Positions 2,687-18,220 of a DNA stretch of 23,103 nucleotides are shown piece after piece. The stretch lies in assembly GCA_019312985.1 (NCBI GenBank), contig JAFDCC010000004.1:1-23103 (forward strand), written 5' to 3'. Positions within the stretch are counted from its first letter, which is position 1. Each line of letters opens with the position of its first letter. The notes under the pieces were generated by a model. That model was given only the letters and a program-made list of their open reading frames with translations, did not search any database and was not told the DNA's origin. This stretch comes from Deltaproteobacteria bacterium. Its GTDB lineage: Bacteria > Desulfobacterota > Desulfobulbia > Desulfobulbales > BM004. Both the position numbers and the translations under genes were made by a program.

Positions 2687-2715
2687 CCCGGGGCATGCAA
2701 CCGGGAGGGGGTTTA

Positions 2716-3888
2716 ATGGAACGGATACGGAAGTTTCTCCTGGAGCGCCGGCAGACCGGCACTCTCCGCACCCTGGCACCCCTGGTCCGCCTCGGGCACG
2801 GCTGGGTCAGACCCCTGGATTCCGGGGAAAAATTGCTCGACTTTTCGTCCAACGACTACCTCGGCCTGGCGGAACATCCCGAGGTCATCGGCGCCGCCAG
2901 AAAGTACCTGGAAATGTTCGGGGCCGGGGCCGGGGCTGCCCGTCTCATGAGCGGCGACCTGGAAATCAACCACCTCCTGGAGCAGGAAATTGCCCGGTTC
3001 AAGTCGACGGAGGCGGCCCTGCTTTTCGGCAGCGGCTACCTGGCCAATACCGGCATTATCCCGGCCCTGGCCGGCCGGGGCGATCTCATCGTCACCGACC
3101 GGCTGAACCACGCAAGCATCTACGATGGCTGCCTACTTTCCGGCGCAAGGACCATAAGGTTTCGCCACAACGACCTGAACCATCTCGAGCAGATCCTGCA
3201 GGAAAAAAGAAGCCAGTACAACAGCTGCCTTCTCGTTGTCGAGTCCATCTACTCCATGGATGGCGACCGCTGCCCTCTCGTGGAACTGGTGAAGCTGAAA
3301 AAACGGTTCGGCTTCTTTCTCATGGTTGACGAGGCTCACGCCACCGGCATTTACGGCGAGAACGGCGCCGGCATCATCGAGGAGGACGGGGTCAGCGACG
3401 GGGTCGACATCGCCATGGGCACATTCGGCAAGGCCCTGGGAAGCTATGGCGCCTATGCGGCGGCCTCGCGGGAGATGGTTGATTACCTTGTCAACAGGGC
3501 CCGCACCTTCATTTACTCCACGGCGCTGCCGCCGGCCGTTATCGGAGCCTCCCTCGCCTCCCTCTACCTCGTCGGGTCAGAAGTGCAGCATCGCCTCGAC
3601 CTGCTGGCAAAGGTGGCCTTTTTCAAAAAACAGCTGCGTAAAAACGGCCTGAAAGACGATTTCGGCCCCTCCCAGATTATTCCCGTCATGATAGGCGACA
3701 GCGCCAAGGCCCTTGCTGCGGCTGCAGAGCTCCGCCGCCGCGGAATCTATCTCAAGGCAGTCCGGCCGCCGACTGTGCCGGAAGGCACCGCCCGCCTCCG
3801 CTTCTCCATAACGAACCACCACCGGGAGGAGGATTTGAAACGGTGCGCCGCAATCCTGGCAGAAGAACTGCGCCGCCATAAGCTGTAA
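2716..3888 (+). CDS. bioF: 8-amino-7-oxononanoate synthase
   Basis: A 390-residue PLP enzyme of the alpha-oxoamine synthase family. BioF condenses pimeloyl-ACP (or CoA) with L-alanine to give 8-amino-7-oxononanoate, the first step in building the biotin ring. Visible hallmarks are DFSSNDYLGLAEH near residue 40, LLFGSGYLANTG, VDEAHATGIYG (D205, H208) and the PLP lysine K239 in TFGKALGSYGAY. The start is ATG at 2716 because GGGAGGGGG lies just upstream and the protein then matches BioF from its first residues (MERIRKFL). The frame is open for another 90 codons upstream, but that overlaps pcnB and has no family match. The next gene is also a biotin gene (BioH-BioC fusion). KBL and serine palmitoyltransferase are relatives; context decides for BioF. 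Confidence 0.93.
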   Translation: MERIRKFLLERRQTGTLRTLAPLVRLGHGWVRPLDSGEKLLDFSSNDYLGLAEHPEVIGAARKYLEMFGAGAGAARLMSGDLEINHLLEQEIARFKSTEAALLFGSGYLANTGIIPALAGRGDLIVTDRLNHASIYDGCLLSGARTIRFRHNDLNHLEQILQEKRSQYNSCLLVVESIYSMDGDRCPLVELVKLKKRFGFFLMVDEAHATGIYGENGAGIIEEDGVSDGVDIAMGTFGKALGSYGAYAAASREMVDYLVNRARTFIYSTALPPAVIGASLASLYLVGSEVQHRLDLLAKVAFFKKQLRKNGLKDDFGPSQIIPVMIGDSAKALAAAAELRRRGIYLKAVRPPTVPEGTARLRFSITNHHREEDLKRCAAILAEELRRHKL

Positions 3889-3945: not shown

Positions 3946-5439
3946 ATGTCCCATATATTTCACAATAGCGCAATGCTGCATACCGCAGAAAGACCGACTC
4001 TCTTTCTGCCGGGCTGGGGTTTTGACGGCCGGGTGCTGAGCCTGCTGAAGCCCGCGCCGGACTGGATCTTTCCGGAAACCCCGCTGGACCCGGCAATCAT
4101 CGAGGATGATCTGCTGCAGTTGCTTGCGGGGGAAAACGCCGGAAAAGTACGGCTGGTCGGCTGGTCCATGGGTGCCATGCTGGGCCTTGATTTCACCGCG
4201 AGGCACCCGGAACCGTTCTCCTCGCTGCTCCTCGTTTCCCTCCGCCGTTGCTGGCCCCGGAAAGAGATACAGGCGATAAGGGAAGAATTCAGCCGCGCCC
4301 CGGAGGCCTTCATGAAAACCTTTTACCGGAAGTGTTTTCTGGGCAGCAGAGAGACCTACCGAAACTTCTGCGCCAGCCTCCAGCCTCTCTATCTTGGAGA
4401 CCTGGAGAAAAACAGCGGCCGGCTTGCGCGCGGTCTTGCCTTTCTCGAAACATTTCAGCCCCCGGCAACTCCTCCCGCCATCCCGACAAGGCTGGTCCAC
4501 GGCCGGCAGGACATCATCGCCCCGGTGCAAGAGATGGCAGTCCTGCCGGGCGCTGCCCGGAAGGTCATTGACACGGCGGGCCATTTTCTCTTTTCCCACC
4601 CGGATTCCTTTTATCAGCAGGAAACAAAAAAGAAGGCGATCCAGGCCAGGTTTTCCAGGGCGGCGGCATCATACGATTCCTATGCCGTGATCCAGAAAGA
4701 AGTGGCCCAGAAGCTGGCACTGCAGATCAAGCCGGAGAGAGGAATTCGGCAGGTCAGAACCATCCTGGAGATTGGCTGCGGCACAGGGAATTTTACCGAA
4801 CTGCTGGCAACCCGTTTTCCCGCAGCACGGATAACGGCCATCGACTTTTCTCCGGAAATGGTCGAAAGGGCCAGGGCCAAGCTGGAGAACCCGAATATCG
4901 TGTTTCTCTGCGTCGAGGGGGAAAAATTCCTGCAGGATGCGCCGGGAGAATCCTTTGACCTGGTAACGTCCAACGGCTCCCTGCAGTGGTTTGCCGATCT
5001 GGACAGGGCCCTGGGCAACATTGCCCGCGTCCTTGTCCCCGGCGGGACAATAGCCTGCTCCATCTTCGGGCCGGAGAGTTTGCAGGAACTGGGACAGGGG
5101 CTGGCTGCCCTGCATGCCACGGCAGATTCCCTTGCGGCCAGGTCCTTTCTGCCGCGCAAGAGGCTGGCGAAAGCACTTCAGGCCCATTTTTCCGGCGCTA
5201 TTCTGACGGAAGAGCGCCTGGAGAGAAAATATCAGTCAGTGCGCGACCTCCTCCGCCATATCCAGAAAACCGGAACGGCAGGGTGGCCGCAGGCGGTGCC
5301 GCAGCGCCTGACCCCTGCCAGGGTGTCACGGCTTGACCGGTGGTTTACCGCGACATACGGCTCCTGCCGGGTGACCTACCATGTTTTTTTCCTGCAGGGC
5401 GAAAAAGGCGGCGAGCTCACGGAGAGGGATTGCGAATGA
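3946..5439 (+). CDS. bioC: BioH-like pimeloyl-ACP methyl ester esterase fused to BioC malonyl-ACP O-methyltransferase
   Basis: A 497-residue two-domain protein. Residues 1 to about 222 form an alpha/beta hydrolase: FLPGWGFDGRV, nucleophile S74 in GWSMG, Asp189 in HGRQD and His213 in DTAGHF make a full triad. From about residue 226 a complete BioC begins with its own N-terminus (AIQARFSRAAASYDSYA), followed by the SAM-binding LEIGCGTGNF (274-283), the DFSPEM segment and LTSNGSLQWF-like VTSNGSLQWFADL. BioC methylates malonyl-ACP to open a disguised fatty-acid elongation; BioH removes the methyl group from pimeloyl-ACP methyl ester to end it. One chain thus holds the entry and exit steps, next to BioF which takes the product. 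There is no stop or frame change at the junction. ATG at 3946 has a poor ribosome site; M10 is an alternative start. Confidence 0.88.
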   Translation: MSHIFHNSAMLHTAERPTLFLPGWGFDGRVLSLLKPAPDWIFPETPLDPAIIEDDLLQLLAGENAGKVRLVGWSMGAMLGLDFTARHPEPFSSLLLVSLRRCWPRKEIQAIREEFSRAPEAFMKTFYRKCFLGSRETYRNFCASLQPLYLGDLEKNSGRLARGLAFLETFQPPATPPAIPTRLVHGRQDIIAPVQEMAVLPGAARKVIDTAGHFLFSHPDSFYQQETKKKAIQARFSRAAASYDSYAVIQKEVAQKLALQIKPERGIRQVRTILEIGCGTGNFTELLATRFPAARITAIDFSPEMVERARAKLENPNIVFLCVEGEKFLQDAPGESFDLVTSNGSLQWFADLDRALGNIARVLVPGGTIACSIFGPESLQELGQGLAALHATADSLAARSFLPRKRLAKALQAHFSGAILTEERLERKYQSVRDLLRHIQKTGTAGWPQAVPQRLTPARVSRLDRWFTATYGSCRVTYHVFFLQGEKGGELTERDCE

Positions 5440-5527: not shown

Positions 5528-6013
5528 CTACTTCTGTTCCCGGCGCCACACCTCTTCCTGCTCCAGGAGTTCCCCCAGGATAAAGGCGGCTTCCCCGACG
5601 AGTTCAACACAGATTTTACGTCTGCTTTCCGGGTTGTTGTAGTACTCCTTGACCGCAGCCCGATCTTTCCAGTCCACCCCGGCAATGTCCCGGCAATTCA
5701 TGCTGCCGTAGGGACTGCTCAGTTCCTCGAATTTCTTCAGAAACTTGTTGCCGGCGCCCCAGATGCGGGGGTTTTCCTTTTCCGCCAGACTACCCCGGCT
5801 GTAGATGCTTGAAATCATCGCGATTCCTCCCAGCAGTATGCCGCAAACGCCCCCCGAACTGGCAATACCGCCGCCGAAAGCGCCGACCGCCTTGATAACT
5901 GCCTCGTCAACCAAGCCTGTTTTTTCCTGGCACACGGCAAGGACGGCCTGGCTTCAGTGAAATTTTCTGATAAAAAGATCCTCTGCCTTCCGGCGCATTT
6001 CATCTGGCGTCAT
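5528..6013 (-). CDS. C-GCAxxG-C-C family selenoprotein (in-frame UGA at codon 20 read as Sec)
   Basis: The open part (GTG at 5935 to 5528) is only the C-terminal 135 residues. Reading upstream in the same frame passes one TGA (5956-5954) and reaches ATG at 6013, with AGGAG 8 bases before it (6026-6022), giving 161 residues. The segment before and after the TGA, RKFH-U-SQAVLAVCQE, lines up with the C-A-Q-A-V-L segment at the start of this redox family, so the TGA sits exactly where the first conserved cysteine belongs. Other family cysteines are present: C28, C57 in GGVCG, C107 in NCRDIAG and C135. A SECIS-like hairpin follows the TGA. Family members are small presumed redox proteins of anaerobes with no settled function; selenoprotein forms are known. 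Most ORF callers would cut off the first 26 residues. Confidence 0.85.
5909..5956 (-). promoter_or_regulatory. UGA codon plus bacterial SECIS-like hairpin
   Basis: Read on the minus strand, TGA at 5956-5954 is followed at once by a 9-pair stem (5953-5945 with 5917-5909, including two G-U pairs). Inside it are UCCU/AGGA (5943-5940 with 5928-5925), a U-C mismatch, two G-C pairs and the apical loop CGUGU (5936-5932). The loop starts 18 bases after the UGA and has G as its second base. This fits the known bacterial SECIS pattern: apical loop 16-37 bases from the UGA, with a G in the first two loop positions. SelB would bind the loop. Pairing was worked out by hand. Confidence 0.7.
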
Positions 6014-6181
6014 CTGTCTTTCTCCTGAAAATATGGATATTGGTGTGGTAAGCCCTCAGTTCCGTCCGGCATACACTGGCCTGTGAACAGTGAGGCTGCC
6101 TTTGAAAAAAGAAAGAGGGCGAGAGGGTACCTGGATGCGCTGCAGCCTGAAATCGACCTCCCCCGCTTTTCTGTTCTTGCT

Positions 6182-15847: not shown

Positions 15848-17107
15848 TTAGTGAAGATGTTTTGCCAGAAAAACCGCGAGGTGCTCGGCCCGCCCGGAGC
15901 CGGAGCAGGCGGCCAACCCTTGCTTCCACTGCAGCAGGCAGCCGGAGCAGGAGGTCAGCACTGTCTGTGCTGCCAGTTCGCCGAACTCGTCAAGAAGCTT
16001 CTGCCGAACCTGCAGGGCCAGGTCCGGGTGCGCCAACTGGAAGAGACCTCCCTGGCCGCAACAGCGGGGGCCGGCCGGCAGCTCCTCCAGTTCGAGGGAA
16101 GGCAGCAGCCTGAGAAGCTCCCGGGGTTCCCGCGTGATGCGGTGCGTAAAGCGGAGATGGCACGGGTCATGATAGAAGACCCTTTCGCCCGCCGCAGCCT
16201 GCAGCAGCTGCCCCCTGTCGGCGGAAAACCTCTCCAGGAAAAAGGAGGAAAACTCCCGAACCCTTCCGGCAAAACGGACCGCCCGTTGCCGCCAATCGGG
16301 GTCGTCGGCCAGAAGCGTTCGATAGGACATCAGCTGATAATAGCAGGAGGAACAGGAGGCCAGGATTGGCAAGCCGTTGTTTTCAAAGGCAGCGATATTC
16401 TTCCGGGCCAGGTCCCGCGCCTCGTCAACCCTGCCGGCGGCCACCGCCGCCATGCCGCAGCATGTCTGCTCCAGGGGCACCTCGGCTTCCGCACCCGTTG
16501 CCGCAACGACAAGAGACTGTGTCGCCCCGGCAATTTCCGGCTGCAGATGATTAGCGAGACAGCCTATGAAATAGGCGGTTTCCGGTTCCGGGCCGCTCGC
16601 CTGGCGGTCGTCCCTCGCAGCCGCTTTTGCCCGCAGCCCGGCAGCATAGCCCGCCGGCGGCGGCTCCAGGATTTCGCCGGTAAAACCTTCCAGCCGCAGG
16701 CGCAGGCCGCTTTCTGCCGGCAGCAGTTCGCCCAGCCTGGCTGCAGCTGAACCGAGCCGGGCCAGCCCCGCCAGAAGAGTGGGGCGGACAAGGGCCTTGC
16801 GGCTCACGTATTTCAGCAGCGATCCCTTCGCCAGTTTCGGCAGCCCCGAACGGGCTTCAACAACCAGTTCCGGGGTATCGAGGCCCCGGGGGCACGCATC
16901 ACGGCAGGCGCCGCACAGAAGGCATCTGGAAAAGATATCTCCGTAGTGCGCTGAAATTGTGTGCTTTTCTGTCCTGGAAACCAGGTGCTGCTTGCCGCGG
17001 GGCGTGTGTGCCTCGTTGCCTGTCACCCCGTAAACCGGGCACAGCGTGTTGCAGGTGCCGCACTTGACGCAGGCGGTCGCATCGCTTCTGCCGCTTTCCT
17101 TCTTCAT
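15848..17107 (-). CDS. GlcF/LldE-like (Fe-S)-binding protein with two CCG domains
   Basis: About 419 residues. Two ferredoxin-type cluster motifs come first: CVKCGTCNTLCPVYG (near 14) and CLLCGACRDACPRG (near 64). Two cysteine-rich CCG domains follow: IGCLANH with CCGMAAVAAGR and SCSSCYYQL, then DPCHLRF with CCGQGGLFQLAHP and SCSGCLLQW. This is the layout of glycolate oxidase subunit GlcF and of subunits passing electrons from 2-hydroxy acids; heterodisulfide reductase HdrB/D shares the CCG pair. No FAD-linked GlcD partner is in the window, so the substrate is unknown. It starts 17 bases after the prfB stop and is followed by a hairpin terminator. ATG at 17107 is preferred (GGAA just upstream); a GTG 9 bases earlier is possible. 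Confidence 0.85.
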   Translation of the reverse strand: MKKESGRSDATACVKCGTCNTLCPVYGVTGNEAHTPRGKQHLVSRTEKHTISAHYGDIFSRCLLCGACRDACPRGLDTPELVVEARSGLPKLAKGSLLKYVSRKALVRPTLLAGLARLGSAAARLGELLPAESGLRLRLEGFTGEILEPPPAGYAAGLRAKAAARDDRQASGPEPETAYFIGCLANHLQPEIAGATQSLVVAATGAEAEVPLEQTCCGMAAVAAGRVDEARDLARKNIAAFENNGLPILASCSSCYYQLMSYRTLLADDPDWRQRAVRFAGRVREFSSFFLERFSADRGQLLQAAAGERVFYHDPCHLRFTHRITREPRELLRLLPSLELEELPAGPRCCGQGGLFQLAHPDLALQVRQKLLDEFGELAAQTVLTSCSGCLLQWKQGLAACSGSGRAEHLAVFLAKHLH

Positions 17108-17124
17108 CGCTTCCACTGGGGCTT

Positions 17125-18220
17125 TTACCGCTGCCAGAGAAGGTACGCCTTGATAAAGGGGTCGAGATTGCCGTCGAGAACGGAGTCGACGTTGCCGATC
17201 TCGCAGCTCGTTCGGTGGTCCTTTACCATCCTGTAGGGCTGCAGGACGTAAGAACGGATCTGGCTGCCCCAGCCGATTTCCTTTTTCTCGCCTTGCAGAT
17301 CCTGCTGCTCCTTGGCCTGGAGTTCCTTTTCCCTGTCGTAAAGACGGGCCCGAAGCATTTTGAACGCCATGTCCTTGTTGCGGTGCTGGGAGCGCTCATT
17401 CTGGCACTGGACGACAATCCCGGTGGGCAGATGGGTTATCCTTACCGCGGAGCTGGTCTTGTTGACATGCTGCCCCCCGGCGCCGCTGGCCCTGTAGGTG
17501 TCAATGCGCAGGTCCTTTTCGTTGATGTCGATATCAATGGCATCATCAAGCTCCGGAAAGACAAACACCGAGGCAAAGGAGGTGTGGCGGCGGCCGCCGG
17601 CATCAAAGGGCGAGATGCGCACCAGCCGGTGGATGCCCATCTCGGAGCGCAAATAGCCATAGGCGTAATGGCCCTTGATCAGGATGGTAACCCCCTTGAC
17701 CCCGGCCTCGTCACCGGGCTGATAGTCAAGAACATCGGCGCTGAAGCCCTTTTCCTCGATCCACCTGAGGTACATCCGCAGGAGCATATCCGCCCAATCC
17801 TGGGCCTCGGTCCCGCCCGCCCCGGCATGGATGGTCAATAGCACGTTGTTCTCGTCATGTTCGCCGGAAAACATGCATTCCAGCTCAAATTCGTCCACCC
17901 GGGCTTCCAGCTTTTCCAGGGTCTCCGTGACCTCGCGGACCGTGGCCTCATCGCCCTCCTCCAGGGCCATTTCCAGCAGCAGGGAAGCATCCTCCCAGAT
18001 CTGGGAGCATGCTTCCCAGGAAGTTATCGCCTCCTGGATCCTGCCCCTTTCCATCTGGATCTTCCTGGCGGCGGCGGCATCATCCCAGAAGCCGGGAGCC
18101 ATTATCTGCTTTTCAAGTCCGGCGAGCTGCCCCCTCTTGCTGTCTACCTCAAAGATGCTCCTTCAGGGCCAGGATGCGGCCCTTTAAATCCTGCAGTTTC
18201 TGTTTCAGTTCTGCTGACAT
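17125..18220 (-). CDS. prfB: Peptide chain release factor 2 with +1 programmed frameshift
   Basis: RF2 ends translation at UGA and UAA. The gene is in two frames. ATG at 18220 (GGAGG upstream) opens 23 codons, MSAELKQKLQDLKGRILALK and EHL, then meets TGA at 18151-18149. Skipping one base there enters the main frame at GAG (18150-18148) and runs to 17125, for 364 residues, almost the same as the 365 of E. coli RF2. The slip site CTT-TGA has AAGGAG three bases before it. Functional motifs are the SPF codon-reading tripeptide in RISPFDAGG and the GGQ peptidyl-hydrolysis loop (near 248-250) in GAGGQHVNKTSSAVR. RF2 sensing its own UGA gives autoregulation. It is in the corC-lnt-prfB run, 55 bases after lnt. 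Confidence 0.96.
18149..18163 (-). promoter_or_regulatory. prfB +1 frameshift signal
   Basis: Minus strand reads AAGGAG-CAT-CTT-TGA: internal Shine-Dalgarno (18163-18158), CTT slip codon (18154-18152) and in-frame stop TGA (18151-18149). Spacing is identical to the E. coli AGGGGG-TAT-CTT-TGA signal. Confidence 0.93.

Follow-up and report, generated by a model that had tools for sequence, protein, structure and literature searches.

A truncated-looking gene in a 23,103-nucleotide stretch of DNA from a Deltaproteobacteria bacterium (contig JAFDCC010000004.1, positions 1 to 23,103, referred to as the window) is very probably a full-length selenoprotein gene of the C-GCAxxG-C-C family (PF09719), in which a UGA is read as selenocysteine (Sec) at a conserved cysteine. 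The gene lies on the reverse strand (5528..6013) and, judging by its named homologues, belongs to a Desulfobulbales-like anaerobe. We propose that its UGA, at 5956-5954, would be decoded by the Sec machinery with the help of a hairpin just 3' of it, and that the product would be an all-helical protein of 161 residues that lacks a leader. The first-pass annotation had proposed a hidden selenoprotein of this family; the analysis supports that reading, and those of the observations named as refuting it that could be looked for did not materialise. Actual Sec insertion in this organism, and the role of the protein, are what we infer from sequence.

The gene and its reading frame

The open reading frame list for this region contains only a frame of 135 codons that starts at a GTG (5528..5935, reverse strand), and this short form is the one deposited in the protein database (P0002, 135 residues, 100% identical). 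Reading further upstream, through the single TGA at codon 20 (5954..5956), leads to an ATG at 6013 preceded, 8 nucleotides 5', by an AGGAG ribosome-binding site (6022..6026). The resulting frame has 161 codons and meets no further stop ahead of its TAG at 5528. Frame, coordinates, ribosome site and TGA had all been put forward in the first-pass annotation and were confirmed in the sequence.

With the PF09719 profile (cut-off 27) the read-through product reaches 82.7 bits, and TIGR01909, named "C-GCAxxG-C-C family (seleno)protein", gives 57.8 bits at a cut-off of 47.4. It shows the four-cysteine order of PF09719 as U20, C57, C107 and C135, the first position being allowed as Sec, and the alignment places codon 20 at the family's first conserved cysteine, where it had been predicted to fall. 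The neighbouring family cysteines are intact, as also predicted: Cys57 (codon 5843..5845) is present in all 220 aligned members, while Cys107 (5693..5695) and Cys135 (5609..5611) are each present in 219, the exception in each case being one broken copy. With UGA written as C, all four cysteines occur in 214 of the 220, and five of the other six are database entries with tryptophan (Trp) in place of the UGA. The predicted product is helical throughout and, because it has no leader, probably cytoplasmic.

Short forms are common among the homologues: 89 of the 120 listed are 124-138 residues long and start beyond the place of codon 20, presumably as a result of the same UGA, the DNA of these entries being mostly unread.

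Codon 20 among relatives

Codon 20 was surveyed at three depths. A search of 77 related genomes gave a match in 39, with a TGA inside 14 of the 19 rows having E < 1e-50. The order-wide search (257 genomes, of which 90 matched at E ≤ 1e-20; 91 rows) allowed codon 20 to be read in 77 rows, window gene included, 13 being unfetched (TGA reported in 4) and one cut before codon 20; the codon is TGA in 50 copies, TGC in 24 and TGT in 3. The family recurs across the phylum, where 49 of 395 genomes match the window protein at E ≤ 1e-15 (56 rows, 22 unread and 7 counted before), and the 27 further copies read there have TGA in 15, TGC in 8 and TGT in 4. In total, 104 copies comprise 65 with UGA, 39 with a Cys codon and none with any other, which is the pattern of UGA at a Cys position that marks a bacterial selenoprotein. 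The fetched loci also contain ten remote paralogues, nine with Cys and one (L045) with TGA.

A sequencing error is unlikely because five further members of the genus (G003, G004, G006, G007 and G008) have the TGA as well and because the 90%-identity cluster of the short database form, P0002, holds 12 sequences on 3 contigs. This recurrence argues against the expectation that resequencing would reveal TGC or TGT in the window gene. Among 104 full-length database proteins, five (P0010, P0029, P0038, P0039, P0192) carry Trp at the place of codon 20; most simply, these are UGA codons called with genetic code 4, in entries whose DNA was not seen. Together, the codon survey indicates that TGA at codon 20 is not there by chance, and the question of what homologues carry at this codon is answered by Cys or UGA only in the copies read.

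Translation through the UGA

We then asked how selection acts on either side of codon 20, using the uncorrected ratio of non-synonymous to synonymous differences (pN/pS) over all 820 pairs of 41 close UGA copies. Codons 2-19 give a ratio of 0.21, codons 21-38 one of 0.39 and codons 39-56 one of 0.23, against 0.93 for an equal length of DNA 5' of the ATG. Each of the 63 close copies read has an ATG where the alignment places the start. These values indicate that the gene is translated through the UGA, under purifying selection on both sides of codon 20.

The same results bear on the possibility that the TGA is a nonsense mutation in a decaying gene, from which a 135-residue product starting at the GTG, or nothing at all, would be made. 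In favour of this, the database entry is the short form, the hairpin of the window copy is weak and a tRNA-Sec was not found in the assembly (the last two described below). However, TGA stands at codon 20 in 65 of the 104 copies read, the segment upstream of the UGA is under purifying selection, the ATG and its ribosome site are retained and the window copy has no other stop before its end, and we consider decay very improbable.

A tree of the 104 copies, computed with codon 20 masked (a quick tree, with no bootstrap), requires nine switches between Sec and Cys, at least five of which are forced by its starred branches. In this tree the window gene falls within a 38-row branch in which every copy has UGA (SH-aLRT 91). 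Adjacent paralogues are found in four genomes, as a Cys copy beside a Sec copy in three (L163, L165, L167) and as two Sec copies in the fourth (L168).

A hairpin 3' of the UGA

Bacterial Sec insertion sequence (SECIS) elements have an apical loop of 3-14 nucleotides that begins 16-37 nucleotides past the UGA and has a G within its first two bases. The best fit to this geometry in each copy was scored relative to synonymous recodings drawn from its own gene. The test was devised after the results of plain folding were known, and a second set of 27 copies was not used in choosing it; its p-values ignore kinship and related sequences are not independent.

The mean hairpin z is -1.66 for the 41 close Sec copies and -1.74 for 9 far Sec copies, compared with +0.20 for 27 Cys copies, and p ≤ 0.1 is reached in 21/41, 7/9 and 1/27, respectively. 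Control windows (48 nucleotides before, and 48 and 96 nucleotides after) gave mean z values of only -0.60 to +0.43. The place of the stem is shared between branches while its letters differ: it reads TTCTGGCC-GTG-GGCCAGGA in the close copies, CTCGGCG-CGTG-CGCCGAG in the far branch and TTCTTGC-GGTCGG-GCAAGAG in family f33, and it is 8 base pairs long in many relatives. The second set has a mean energy of -8.3 for Sec and -4.9 for Cys copies (p 0.013 for energy, 0.021 for z). Sec copies form 7.10 of the 8 pairs and Cys copies 2.64, counts weakened by the fact that the structure was drawn from the Sec copies themselves.

In the window, the SECIS-like apical hairpin (5925..5943, reverse strand) has 4 + 2 base pairs with one mismatch and a CGUGU loop starting 17 nucleotides past the UGA. 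A longer stem encloses it (5909..5953, reverse strand; minimum-energy fold of 61 nucleotides, -18.4 kcal/mol), which with a z of -0.63 is not significant alone.

Several observations weigh against a SECIS function for this hairpin. The window's own copy fits the geometry at only -4.6 kcal/mol (p 0.91 against synonymous recodings), and among the 41 close Sec copies a single one (L103) has a weaker hairpin. The 0.1 level is reached in just those 21 of the 41 close Sec copies and, in the second set, in 2/15 Sec and 1/12 Cys copies. Some Cys copies have strong hairpins (4/27 at -7.5 or below, and also L159, L164 and L177), and where Cys and Sec copies stand side by side the energies of the two are near-equal (-6.4/-5.3, -3.4/-5.3 and -7.2/-7.4). 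Rfam at its gathering cut-offs reported no SECIS family. Finally, plain folding of the 48 nucleotides after the UGA gave a small excess only (mean z -0.76 for close Sec, -0.55 for far Sec and +0.15 for Cys copies), with p ≤ 0.05 in 2/41 close Sec copies and a z of -0.84 in a control window of the far copies; folding of the whole 48-nucleotide stretch is too blunt for the SECIS question. The hairpin is present in the Sec copies as a group, and that of the window is weak.

Sec machinery and the use of UGA

The assembly (1.59 Mb, 299 contigs) is 61% complete. It contains selA (618.9 bits), selD (L015 on contig C156; 340.2 bits) and the N-terminal part of selB (298.5 bits, positions 1-257 of 581, in an open frame reaching the contig end). 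The search for selA, selB, selC and selD suggested in the first-pass annotation was thus answered for three of the four genes: no tRNA-Sec (selC) scored above cut-off in this 61%-complete assembly, where the best match was a tRNA-Ser. The selD gene is itself a selenoprotein gene, with UGA in its active-site motif TCGU.

A DNA search of nine genomes of the genus, this assembly (G000) included, recovered an intact tRNA-Sec in G003, G004 and G005 and a copy in G002 that is truncated at the end of its contig (64 of 94 bases). ARAGORN identified those of G003 (L064) and G005 (L071) as tRNA-Sec(tca), and 69 of the 77 related genomes have a tRNA-Sec match above cut-off. The missing selC is a point against Sec insertion here, as is the failure of the same search to find a tRNA-Sec in G001, G006, G007 and G008, which are 80-88% complete; in G006 a match of 20 bases does not extend into a tRNA-Sec. 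Three of these genomes, G006, G007 and G008, have the UGA gene and are 80-84% complete, so the tRNA-Sec gap is not fully explained.

UGA also serves as an ordinary stop in this DNA, ending 8 of the 16 window genes listed, and prfB (release factor 2; 17125-18220, reverse strand) has its +1 frameshift site, CTT TGA, after 23 codons (UGA at 18151-18149). The latter, in a gene named by reading, is a second recoded UGA within the window. These observations, together with the Sec genes of the assembly and the finding that the sense codon is Cys in all 39 non-UGA copies read, stand against the idea that the UGA is read as another amino acid, such as Trp under code 4, or is leaky. Such an idea could appeal to the five Trp entries described above, and we regard it as barely credible. 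A code-4 reading, gene decay and a real short product starting at the GTG were all rejected on the codon 20 survey, selection, the retained ATG and the use of UGA as stop.

A possible iron-sulfur centre

What the selenoprotein does is far less certain than that it is one. At a little under an even chance in our estimate, it would be a free-standing version of the domain that carries the iron centre in split-Soret cytochrome c, and its Cys/Sec 20, 57, 107 and 135 would bind an iron-sulfur centre or a labile variant of it. The putative centre would pass or sense electrons, and Sec20 would tune its potential or reactivity. The predicted model of the window protein has the fold and the four Cys positions of the split-Soret iron-centre domain, whose structure (1h21), the sole solved relative, bears the title of an iron-centre protein. 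The paper behind it, from 2003, is said to describe an electron paramagnetic resonance signal from an iron-sulfur centre of a novel kind, perhaps [2Fe-2S], with ligands only modelled. Since an iron-sulfur centre is what the fold suggests, iron may be bound by the selenium. A stronger proposal, which we consider rather unlikely, is that Sec20 is a selenolate ligand of the centre (three Cys and one Sec), making it a natural Fe-Se(Sec) site at which, by the starred branches of the quick tree, Sec and Cys have replaced one another five times or more in the phylum. The split-Soret cytochrome is a dimer, and the adjacent paralogues may thus form a hetero-pair.

The iron-sulfur part of this proposal faces several difficulties. 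The 1h21 crystal, of protein purified aerobically, is reportedly without an iron-sulfur centre. The link to 1h21 was reached through profiles and the predicted model only: the single sequence, run against solved structures, gave nothing credible (best E 0.6), Foldseek alone found 1h21 at no better than E 2e-3, and helical models can reach the Z obtained by chance. VIA-align listed no other credible fold, a result that excludes nothing. Metal binding at the four Cys/Sec is a prediction from the fold, the profiles and the conserved cysteines, and the gene neighbourhoods described below add no functional support.

A different mechanism, which leaves the selenoprotein itself untouched, would make Sec20 an ordinary thiol-type redox residue that forms a selenenylsulfide with one of the three cysteines and reduces a substrate, without any metal. 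Sec and Cys interchange in the 104-copy tree, PF09719 is named "putative redox-active protein" and, according to PMC13188914, many predicted selenoproteins are thiol-oxidoreductase-like. However, a CxxC/UxxC arrangement is absent, conservation of all four cysteines in 214/220 aligned members is better suited to a metal site than to a two-residue pair, and the one solved relative carries an iron-centre title. We regard this metal-free mechanism as possible but on balance doubtful.

The case illustrates how UGA-containing genes hide as short database forms. In the parts of the literature searched, the chemistry of the family is unassigned beyond "putative redox-active"; its fold, profile and all four cysteines tie it to a protein described with an iron centre, and so provide a testable chemistry. 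If Sec does ligate iron, the site would be a natural selenolate-ligated iron-sulfur site, of which, to our knowledge, few are documented outside engineered proteins.

Gene neighbourhood and other genes in the window

Neighbourhoods of the selenoprotein gene were compared in two rounds, 20 of 9-15.5 kb plus the window and then 12 more of 9-16.5 kb. Neighbours were shared chiefly within related groups, such as L208-L211, L150-L152, L212-L213 and L141-L142. The window gene is directly preceded by a HAD hydrolase gene, which occupies the same place in two genus mates (L139, L140). There are also two clusters with six members each: one, which in the first round includes the window's ABC ATPase, occurs in six neighbourhoods at varying distances, and the other is a reverse-strand open reading frame lying mostly over or beside the selenoprotein gene. 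None of these patterns was counted as evidence. In L212 and L213, of family f33, the Sec gene stands beside two genes that read as subunits of a benzoyl-CoA reductase / 2-hydroxyacyl-CoA dehydratase.

Elsewhere in the window, a domain scan identified an alpha/beta hydrolase fused to an S-adenosylmethionine-dependent methyltransferase (3946-5439, forward strand), beside an aminotransferase-class gene (2707-3888, forward strand); we take the first to resemble BioH/BioG-BioC and the second bioF. The product of the gene at 15848-17116 (reverse strand) is an iron-sulfur protein that combines CCG domains with a 4Fe-4S dicluster domain.

Comparison with known systems

Among the closest known systems is the split-Soret cytochrome c (1h21; NF047622), with which the window protein shares the fold over residues 1-159, the PF09719 domain and Cys (or Sec) at all four places. 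Proteins of the split-Soret type differ in having a C-terminal part with two CxxCH motifs (18 of 20 read), whereas the window protein ends after the domain; many also have a leader, as judged by eye, which the window protein lacks, and in all 20 read the residue matching Sec20 is encoded as Cys rather than by UGA. NF047622 is absent from the profile hits of the window protein at E ≤ 0.001, and CxxCH is absent from its sequence. The window protein, then, has the split-Soret domain without being the cytochrome. One split-Soret-type open reading frame that lacked its N-terminus (L197) was inspected for a hidden UGA; it has Cys there, and its start had been set too late.

Two further models resemble the window protein in part. 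The "DVU_1555 family C-GCAxxG-C-C protein" (NF045669) is the best-scoring NCBIfam model, at 70.6 bits against a cut-off of 103. The "HUGP/GUXX-star fusion selenoprotein" (NF045501), whose name alone suggests His-Sec at the position of Sec20, gives 39.8 bits over residues 4-153; its cut-off is 325, the match ends at position 155 of a 236-position profile and the window protein has no second Sec.

As far as the searched parts of the literature go, no description of the C-GCAxxG-C-C family as iron-sulfur proteins was found. The accessible text of PMC5701242 and PMC5928083 mentions the split-Soret cytochrome only, that of PMC8318568 did not yield the term GCAxxG, and no text joining "split-Soret" with "GCAxxG" was found in the collection searched, though one may exist outside it. 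Selenoproteins of the family are, by contrast, on record. C-GCAxxG-C-C (pfam09719) appears in the selenoprotein table of PMC9312934, and Table 1 of PMC13188914 lists a "form 1" and a "form 2", "predicted with high confidence", forms differing by Sec position or motif; one homologue (P0156) already bears the name "(seleno)protein" at NCBI. The window protein belongs to the same Pfam family (PF09719 / TIGR01909) as these selenoproteins and has one Sec. C-GCAxxG-C-C selenoproteins are thus already known, and the window gene adds a member.
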